DNA from: an uncultured Clostridiaceae bacterium
GTDB taxonomy: Bacteria; Bacillota; Clostridia; TANB77; CAG-465
Direction: 5' to 3'
DNA: 64,000 nucleotides
NCBI GenBank assembly: GCA_947381905.1
Contig: CANCXL010000004.1
Location: forward strand, 1-64,000
Each line of letters begins with the position of its first letter. Position 1 is the stretch's first letter. Below the pieces are notes generated by a model. It had not been told where the DNA came from, did no database searches, and was given only the letters and a program-made list of their open reading frames with translations. The translations under genes and the position numbers were made by a program. Below, piece by piece: positions 37,364 through 38,658 of this stretch.

Positions 37364-37392
37364 TTGACAACATAAAATAAATATAGTATAAT
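37364..37392 (+). promoter_or_regulatory. Promoter of the glycine-riboswitch transcript
   Basis: Perfect TTGACA (37364-37369) and TATAAT (37387-37392) separated by 17 bp. One of the strongest promoters in the window; the start site would be near 37399, just before the riboswitch. Confidence 0.85.
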
Positions 37393-37412
37393 ATAATACG
37401 TAAAGCAAATAT

Positions 37413-37592
37413 TTTCGGATGATAAAAACCCTAGAGACTACTTAAATGTAGAGCCGAAGAAGCAAGAGTTTTAGGTCAAGTCTACTAAAACTTGAAACTA
37501 TCAGGCAAAAGGAAGGTTATTTGACGATACTTTGGAGAGAACGTGTAAACGTCGCCTACGAGGATACAACCAACTGGCAAAAGGACAGAGAA
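37413..37592 (+). promoter_or_regulatory. Tandem glycine riboswitch
   Basis: Two consecutive aptamers with glycine-riboswitch signatures fill most of this 350-bp gene-free gap. The first (about 37425-37520) has AGCCGAAGAAGCAAG followed by TATCAGGCAAAAGGAAGG. The second (about 37529-37592) has TTTGGAGAGAACG, GTCGCCTACGAGG and CTGGCAAAAGGACAGAG. P1 pairings are visible: AACC/GGTT for the first, CTTTG/CAGAG for the second. The tandem arrangement with a short linker is the classical glycine-sensing form. A terminator hairpin follows, so control is by transcription attenuation, probably on at high glycine as is usual for this class. Confidence 0.85.
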
Positions 37593-37636
37593 TATAAGAT
37601 GTAAAATAAGAATTATTTTATCTTATATTCTTTTTT
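37590..37636 (+). terminator. Expression-platform terminator of the glycine riboswitch
   Basis: GAATATAAGAT and ATCTTATATTC form an 11-bp stem around an A/T-rich loop, followed by six Ts. The stem begins directly at the 3' side of the second aptamer's P1, so ligand binding can affect its formation. Confidence 0.75.
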
Positions 37637-37691
37637 CAGCTTAAATTATATTTGGTAGACAAATTTTAATTAAGGTAGGAGATGTTAGAAA

Positions 37692-38582
37692 TTGAAAGAA
37701 AAACTAAAAAAAGAGGGGAAAATATTAAAGCTCTCGGTACTTTTGAGTACTTTATTTACAATGTCAGAAATAATTATGGCATTTATAAGTAATTCTAAAG
37801 CATTACTTATGGACAGCATATTTGCTATAGCAGATGTAATAATAATTTTAATCATATCATTTTTATTGCCGCTTATATATAAGCCAGTAACGGAAAAAAG
37901 ACCATATGGATATTCTCAAATAGAATCTATTTTTATAATTATAAAGGGAATATCTGTAGCAATAATTGCAGCATTCTTAATTAAAGATAATATCGAGGTA
38001 CTTGCAACAGGTGGTAGTGAACTTGACTGTGCACTATTAATGTTTTATCAAATAATTGAGGTTATTTTATTTATAGGTGTATATTCTTATTTAAAGAAAA
38101 AAGCTAAAAAAGTTGATACTCCTGTAATTGAGTCTGATCTTGTTGGATGGAAAATAGATACAGCTCAGGGTATGGGAATGTTTGTATCATTCTTTTTACA
38201 GTTTATTTTAAAATACACAAATTTATCATTTATTGTTCCATATATTGATTCTACAGTTGCAATATTAATATCTATACTTATGATAAAAGAACCTATAGAA
38301 ATGGTAATAGATGCATTTAAAAGTTTAGTACTATTTGCACCAGAAAAAGAAACAATGGAAGAAATAAAAGAGATTGTAAGCAGAAAAATTAAAAAATATC
38401 CATATGAAGTTACTTTTTATGATATTGTAAGAACTGGAAGAATGATATGGATAGAGTTATATATAAAATCTGATGATATGAATATTAATTTAAAAGAGCT
38501 AAAAAAAGCAAAAAAAGATGTTGAATCGAGTCTTAAAAAAGAATTTGATGAAATTTATGTAGAATTTACACCAGAAATATAA
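37692..38582 (+). CDS. CDF-family (cation-efflux-like) transporter under a glycine riboswitch
   Basis: A 296-residue protein with the cation diffusion facilitator layout: about six helices (to about residue 205) and a C-terminal cytoplasmic ferredoxin-like domain (EIVSRKIKKYPYEVTFYDIVRTG). It keeps the family loop RPYGYSQIES. The two metal-site motifs, normally H/DxxxD in helices 2 and 5, read FAIAD (44-48) and GWKID (152-156). The second Asp is kept in each, but the first ligand is missing. It may therefore not transport Zn2+/Mn2+ in the usual way. The start is TTG 37692 with AGGAG 10 bp upstream; an out-of-frame ATG nearby soon meets a stop. Glycine-responsive export is a plausible role (inference). 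Confidence 0.8.
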   Translation: MKEKLKKEGKILKLSVLLSTLFTMSEIIMAFISNSKALLMDSIFAIADVIIILIISFLLPLIYKPVTEKRPYGYSQIESIFIIIKGISVAIIAAFLIKDNIEVLATGGSELDCALLMFYQIIEVILFIGVYSYLKKKAKKVDTPVIESDLVGWKIDTAQGMGMFVSFFLQFILKYTNLSFIVPYIDSTVAILISILMIKEPIEMVIDAFKSLVLFAPEKETMEEIKEIVSRKIKKYPYEVTFYDIVRTGRMIWIELYIKSDDMNINLKELKKAKKDVESSLKKEFDEIYVEFTPEI

Positions 38583-38590
38583 AGTTTTCT

Positions 38591-38626
38591 AAAGTGGAGC
38601 AAAATTATAGATTTTTGCTCCACTTT
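38591..38626 (+). terminator. 3' hairpin after the CDF-like gene
   Basis: AAAGTGGAGCAAAA and TTTTGCTCCACTTT form a 14-bp perfect stem. The tail is ATGCTATT rather than a full T-run. Confidence 0.65.
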
Positions 38627-38658
38627 ATGCTATTATAGGTTTATGTGGGAGGAAGAAT

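Follow-up and report, generated by a model that had tools for sequence, protein, structure and literature searches.

Metal riboswitches control czcD-type CDFs, and CDFs generally work as exporters. Ordinary tandem glycine riboswitches (Rfam RF00504) are found before gcvT, serA or a glycine permease; in 27 such loci from Clostridia the targets included 10 gcvT, nine serA-like and two PTS_EIIC_2 genes, and CDF was not among the 25 commonest target families listed for them. The tandems at loci L066 and L090 lie upstream of PTS_EIIC_2 (PF13303) membrane proteins. The riboswitch before the glycine-cleavage genes of C. difficile has been described as an ON switch (PMC11477304), whereas a glycine riboswitch of S. 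pyogenes acts as a repressor of the transporter operon in which a Na:alanine symporter gene is followed by a cation-efflux gene under the same control (PMC5829553). A review citing Weinberg 2017 holds that variants of the glycine riboswitch reject glycine when one or both of their cores carry mutations (PMC9481103). On the protein side, metal CDFs carry [H/D/N]xxxD in TM2 and [H/D]xxxD in TM5 (PMC1868760), and some CDFs, either auxiliary or divergent, lack the site residues (PMC1868760, PMC5666860).

The locus described here lies in a window of 64,000 nucleotides from an uncultured gut Clostridiaceae bacterium (contig CANCXL010000004.1), and its promoter, leader and gene are all on the + strand. 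A sigma-70 type promoter, TTGACA-17-TATAAT, occupies positions 37364–37392 and agrees with the consensus at 12 of 12 positions; comparable -35 and -10 elements stand upstream of the riboswitch in all five relatives. A full-length tandem riboswitch follows at 37415–37592, and then an intrinsic terminator at 37588–37636, consisting of a hairpin (RNAfold, -14.1 kcal/mol for the hairpin alone) and a T tract. This hairpin is not listed by a consensus terminator scanner, since the scanner requires at least three G-C pairs and a loop of 3–8. A comparable terminator hairpin was folded by RNAfold in four of the five other species; in the sixth species (L023/L002) the terminator-only script halted at an internal T tract, and the hairpin is the same when the full tail is folded. 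The ribosome-binding site is GGTAGGAG (37674–37681), and a GTAGGAG before the start codon is conserved among the relatives; the gene at 37692–38582 opens with TTG and encodes a CDF-fold transporter of 296 residues with no histidine and one cysteine. The promoter, the terminator and the two aptamers before a CDF-family gene had all been called in a preliminary description of this DNA, and each is borne out. Between the CDF and SseB genes (38582–38640) there is an inverted repeat, AAAGTGGAGCAAAA/TTTTTGCTCCACTTT, possibly a terminator. Read from the sequence, the locus is best explained as a one-gene regulon in which a variant glycine-class riboswitch, with its own promoter and terminator, would control a CDF-fold transporter.

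When the whole window was scanned with cmscan, the only RNA above threshold was a member of the rare class glycine-GGAnGA (RF03166) at 37415–37592, + strand, with 151 bits where the gathering cut-off is 110 (E 9e-33) and coverage of model positions 1–177 of 177. RF03166 is presumably a family from Weinberg 2017, the study that defined glycine riboswitch variants. The ordinary model RF00504 recognizes aptamer I (37419–37526) at 44 bits and leaves aptamer II (37522–37598) at 31.7 bits, just under its cut-off of 32, so that only one of the two aptamers exceeds its gathering score. The covariance-model scan thus upholds the tandem aptamers of the preliminary description and corrects their class, the best model being RF03166. 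An RF00504 scan found no further glycine-type riboswitch elsewhere in the 1.73 Mb genome.

Across the six species that carry the element, RF03166 scores run from 148 to 154 bits. Assignment by this score alone was considered and rejected, because gcvT-linked tandems in a phylum sample reach 117–125 bits, above 110, and the gathering score is therefore not class-specific. The tandems concerned, at L095–L097 and L099, are linked to gcvT-like genes and have a shortened or altered aptamer II. The rewritten aptamer II core of the family, CCuAcGaGG...AACCAACUGG, is present in all six species. The consensus aptamer I core ACugACaGG, with A at position 69, is replaced in all six by ACUAUCAGG; the letter in the model is a majority and not a stated requirement, and since the total score lies 40 bits over the cut-off we weighed the mismatch as variation within RF03166. 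On the aptamer II core together with scores of 148–154 bits, the six loci are assigned to glycine-GGAnGA.

The two aptamers depart from the ordinary type to different degrees. The 5' strand UCG GAU GA (37415–37422) and the 3' strand UGACGA (37522–37527) were recognized from the RF03166 structure line and the sequence, and we read them as a leader-linker kink-turn, CGA pairing with UCG in all six. Position numbers (G32, A33, C66–U69) follow the V. cholerae aptamer II structure, in which G32, A33, C66, U67, C68 and U69 surround a Mg site (PMC11205036); the residues equivalent to U81 and G69 contact glycine, and U80 moves (PMC12060979), the mapping of U80/U81 onto 68/69 being our own. Aptamer I, whose P3 and ligand pocket (37453–37506) are formed by GCCGAAG (37453–37459) and CUAUCAGGC (37498–37506), retains GCC-GAAG and the U of CUNUCAGG, which is U37501 or U69, together with G32-A33-A34-G35, the equivalents of glycine-contacting bases. 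Just before that U, at position 68, A37500 replaces the pyrimidine; position 68 is A in all six variants and C or U in the listed motifs of the comparison set, 29 ordinary tandem glycine riboswitches from Clostridia. The otherwise ordinary tandem at L098, which precedes a membrane protein, has CUAUCAGG in its aptamer II, with the same A at position 68.

Aptamer II (37530–37590) is closed by P1, CUUUG (37530–37534) with CAGAG (37586–37590), all five pairs of which are present in the six species. Where ordinary aptamers read GCC-GAAGG...CU[C/U]UCA-GGC, the pocket at 37554–37578 reads GCC-UAC-G-A-GG-AUACAA-CC-AA-C-U-GGC, with UAC for GAA and two opposite bases missing, and is identical in 6/6 except for one C/U. 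The canonical GAAG and CU[C/U]UCA pocket is therefore intact in neither aptamer, the first differing at position 68 and the second over most of its length. The RNA element is 93% column-identical across the six species, while the adjacent CDF coding sequences differ at 39–46% of third codon positions. In the helices of aptamer I five pairs have changed on both sides, a number matched in five of 500 shuffles, and the covariation score was reached by none of the 500; the paired positions of aptamer II are invariant. Searches for viral copies of the CDF or of the RNA core, and for plasmid copies of the leader RNA, found none.

The preliminary description took glycine to be the ligand, and this is not supported, as the RNA belongs to glycine-GGAnGA and core-mutated variants are reported to reject glycine (PMC9481103). 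Glycine nevertheless keeps some standing, because aptamer I holds G32-A33-A34-G35 and U69, glycine-contact equivalents (PMC12060979, PMC11205036), and because this clade has U69 where the RF03166 consensus has A. Ordinary glycine sensing, in which aptamer I would bind glycine, aptamer II would be only a structural partner and glycine would turn the transporter on, is thus a credible if rather unlikely account: RF00504 does recognize aptamer I, an A68 aptamer occurs in the ordinary tandem at L098, and a singlet aptamer beside a ghost partner has precedents (PMC9481103). Against it stand the A at position 68 in all six, which the listed ordinary motifs lack, the reported rejection of glycine by the class, and aptamer II itself, which adjoins the terminator and whose pocket is rewritten yet invariant, a combination that argues for selection on a ligand bound there.

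The position of the terminator bears on the direction of the switch. Its 5' arm begins within the CAGAG strand of P1(II) and takes the GAG of that 3' strand, an overlap of three to four bases, in the same register as at several ordinary loci, gcvT-linked ones included. Since the terminator overlaps P1(II) as in gcvT-linked glycine riboswitches, the analogy suggests an ON switch: ligand binding would stabilize P1 of aptamer II, and the stabilized P1(II) would deprive the terminator stem of its 5' base, by which ligand would turn the CDF gene on. The opposite arrangement, an OFF switch on an importer, in which ligand would shut down uptake as it does where glycine riboswitches precede Na:alanine symporters, has its precedent in the repressed transporter operon of S. 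pyogenes (PMC5829553). It might also draw on the distribution of the AGCS (Na:alanine) symporter, which is absent from all six genomes with the riboswitch-linked CDF and present in 14 of the 22 other members of the genus. The genus, however, seems to split into two groups, AGCS occurring in 14 of 28 genomes and the SseB neighbor in the other 14 without overlap, so that the absence in the six is not independent evidence; it tracks the subclade, AGCS being missing likewise from the eight genomes that carry SseB but no intact CDF. As the terminator register matches that of gcvT-linked riboswitches, the C. difficile glycine-cleavage riboswitch is described as an ON switch (PMC11477304) and CDFs generally act as exporters, we consider repression of an importer improbable.

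The gene product is a CDF by every measure applied, as the preliminary description had it. It scores 106.1 bits with PF01545 (2.7e-30; cut-off 26.6) and 99.6 with TIGR01297 (cut-off 82.35), and its AlphaFold model (pLDDT 85.9) has the YiiP/ZnT fold, the fifty PDB matches listed (all E <= 0.001) being YiiP or ZnT/SLC30 chains with TM-scores up to 0.75. As modeled, the window protein has a genuine CDF fold. Its TM2 and TM5 motifs, F44-A45-I46-A47-D48 (37821–37835) and G152-W153-K154-I155-D156 (38145–38159), replace H/DxxxD. FAIAD and GWKID had been placed at the metal motifs from the start, and they do fall opposite the ligand motifs in TM2 and TM5 when aligned with another CDF encoded by this genome, which has an intact DxxxD in TM5 and NxxxD in TM2. 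With FxxxD and GxxxD the protein departs from the metal-CDF pattern of the Zn, Fe/Zn and Mn groups. The loss extends to all the riboswitch-linked proteins, as a survey of them confirmed: Phe44 occurs in 6/6, and position 152 is Gly, Val, Glu or Ala, without H or D. The preliminary claim that the metal ligands are lost stands for the first H/D of both motifs and fails for the second Asp of each, D48 and D156, which is kept, so that two of the four site-A ligands are gone. D41 and D149 are also retained, and D156 is Gly in L023. A shifted ligand at position 45, one residue past the lost one, was considered and rejected: Asp45 occurs in 36 of 39 relatives outside the six, but the six riboswitch-linked proteins all have Ala or Gly there, and the alignments showed no replacement nearby, which speaks against the counter-reading of intact ligands at displaced positions. 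On these alignments the transition-metal site appears dismantled, not erased.

The four acidic residues on TM2 and TM5 lend themselves to a reading in which the protein is still an ion exporter, for instance of Mg, Na/K or another hard cation, through a site reorganized on D41, D48, D149 and D156, the riboswitch ligand then being an indirect signal or a metal chelate. Non-canonical ligands do have precedents among CDFs, such as ZnT9-like VxxxD (PMC1868760), and in S. pyogenes a cation-efflux gene shares its regulation with a transporter gene under a glycine riboswitch (PMC5829553). We think this reading unlikely, given that K154 places a lysine in the site in 44 of 47 branch members, that the window protein lacks histidine, that D156 has been lost in L023 and that each of the six genomes has at least one other CDF-family gene.

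Further comparisons place the window protein, by its motifs, in a wider 'WK' branch of Clostridia CDFs, other members of which lack the riboswitch. A scan of genome contigs found 46 relatives, nearly all labeled Clostridia, Lachnospiraceae or other Bacillota, and W153 is present in 47/47 and K154 in 44/47 of the aligned branch sequences. These two residues lie outside the pattern used for the scan; the E68–E78 block lies inside it, and its conservation is therefore biased. The proteins at L053, L054 and L056 form a CDF sub-branch whose TM5 motif is WYMD, not WKxD, and whose TM2 motif is CDMxE/CDLAE. No glycine-type riboswitch reached the gathering threshold before the 35 further, more distant WK-CDF loci that were scanned (6 of 46 loci being unscanned), and among 42 WK-CDF neighbors there was no consistent functional partner, amino-acid permeases appearing in three.

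The invariance of the W-K motif also bears on whether the protein transports anything. In ZnT5-ZnT6 heterodimers ZnT6 plays the auxiliary part (PMC5666860), and on that precedent the riboswitch-linked CDF could be a non-transporting or modulatory subunit that pairs with another CDF of the same genome, at least one of which is found in each of the six. Such a partner is unlinked, however, and CDF-family genes (at least one per genome) occur in 28/28 members of the genus, the riboswitch-linked CDF in six; a motif that is the branch's own and invariant does not look like drift, and a modulator has no need of a small-molecule riboswitch. This strikes us as very doubtful.

Among 287 genomes sampled from the order, only six have RF03166, and these six are also the only ones with a CDF ortholog of at least 64% identity; within the genus the riboswitch is found in 6 of 28 genomes, together with the CDF in 6/6. 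Five of the six turn up again as named metagenome bins, from the gut or elsewhere, and in each of these the RNA lies directly before the CDF. The site sits between a NUDIX gene and an SseB-domain gene, and at the same NUDIX/SseB site in two sister genomes (G038 and G035) only broken pieces of the CDF are left, together with a degenerate form of the leader RNA. Both leader remnants (L101, L103) have kept the terminator and lost aptamer II, a deletion in L101 joining the GGCAAAA repeats of the two aptamers, and their alignments to the window leader exceed 50 shuffles (246.5 vs 86.5, and 118.5 vs 74). G041 holds at most a trace of the CDF end, seen by eye, and its leader alignment is above shuffles in only one of four comparisons; in G060, G063, G080 and G090 the NUDIX gene directly precedes SseB. 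The six-of-six co-occurrence and the joint decay in two sister genomes, although adjacency alone could also yield joint loss, are good evidence that riboswitch and CDF form one functional unit. Judged by these comparisons the pair is real and under selection, and the 22 members of the genus that lack an intact pair, of which two retain clearly decayed remnants, serve as natural comparisons.

The explanation that we favor, though as a whole we hold it at somewhat less than probable, is a ligand-induced one-gene regulon whose CDF exports the glycine-like solute that is sensed. The ligand would be glycine itself or some small amine or amino acid resembling it; it might accumulate since the cells lack the glycine cleavage T-protein, GCV_T being absent from 28/28 genomes of the genus; and the CDF might export the sensed solute, not a metal ion. 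Several points count against this regulon: the acidic residues D48, D156, D41 and D149 remain, the closest relatives without the riboswitch lack consistent glycine-related neighbors, ON polarity relies on three to four shared bases and an analogy, and glycine in particular is reportedly rejected by variant-core riboswitches (PMC9481103). Nor are CDFs known to move amino acids, which also counts against it. Glycine export, the suggestion of the preliminary description, is one of several readings. More broadly, the branch could tentatively be seen as having switched from metal efflux to exporting a small organic compound close to glycine, whether amino acid or amine, with glycine-GGAnGA sensing that solute; if so, this would be the first CDF with an organic substrate, as far as we know, and the ligand of an orphan riboswitch would be identified. 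Kept and lost together, riboswitch and CDF each hint at what the other senses or moves: a consistent single target with a partly dismantled metal site narrows the ligand candidates to solutes that a CDF-fold protein could move after losing that site, and, conversely, the riboswitch offers a binding assay for the substrate of an uncharacterized CDF branch found in many Clostridia.

By sequence, then, the RNA falls into an orphan variant class already described, while the protein represents a divergent branch within an established family, and each can be set beside its nearest relatives. ZnT6 has non-canonical site-A residues as well, and ZnT6 and Zrg17 are eukaryotic groups without the W-K motif or riboswitch control. 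Zrg17 and ZnT9-like CDFs likewise resemble the window protein in joining a CDF fold to non-canonical site-A residues, site A being TxxxS/T in Zrg17 and VxxxD in ZnT9 (PMC1868760). With YiiP/FieF and ZnT CDFs (PF01545) the window protein shares the fold, the predicted helices of the membrane domain, the C-terminal cytosolic domain, the second Asp of both motifs and the TM6 Asp; it differs in having Phe for the TM2 H/D, Gly, Val, Glu or Ala followed by Trp-Lys at the TM5 H/D, and no His. The RNA has in common with the RF00504 tandem type its architecture, kink-turn, P1–P3 junctions and a terminator overlapping P1(II) as before gcvT, and differs in pocket II, where GCC-GAAGG/CUCUCA-GGC has become GCC-UACGAGG/CC-AA-CU-GGC, and in having a CDF as its target. 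It shares with RF03166 the full-length match, the kink-turn leader, the rewritten aptamer II pocket and the tandem layout, and departs from the consensus in aptamer I, with U69 and A68 in place of A at position 69 and G at position 68. In titles and abstracts from an incomplete library no paper joined CDF, riboswitch and glycine, and the pairing of 'glycine riboswitch' with 'cation efflux' led, within that library, to the S. pyogenes paper and a genome-wide prediction. A glycine-class riboswitch upstream of a cation-efflux-family gene is shared with the S. pyogenes operon, and to call the CDF a new riboswitch target class, as had been proposed, was an overstatement; there the cation-efflux gene stands second behind a symporter gene and the RNA is assigned to RF00504 and represses (PMC5829553), whereas here, and as far as we have checked this is new, a CDF alone is the target of the variant class and that control is coupled to loss of the metal site.
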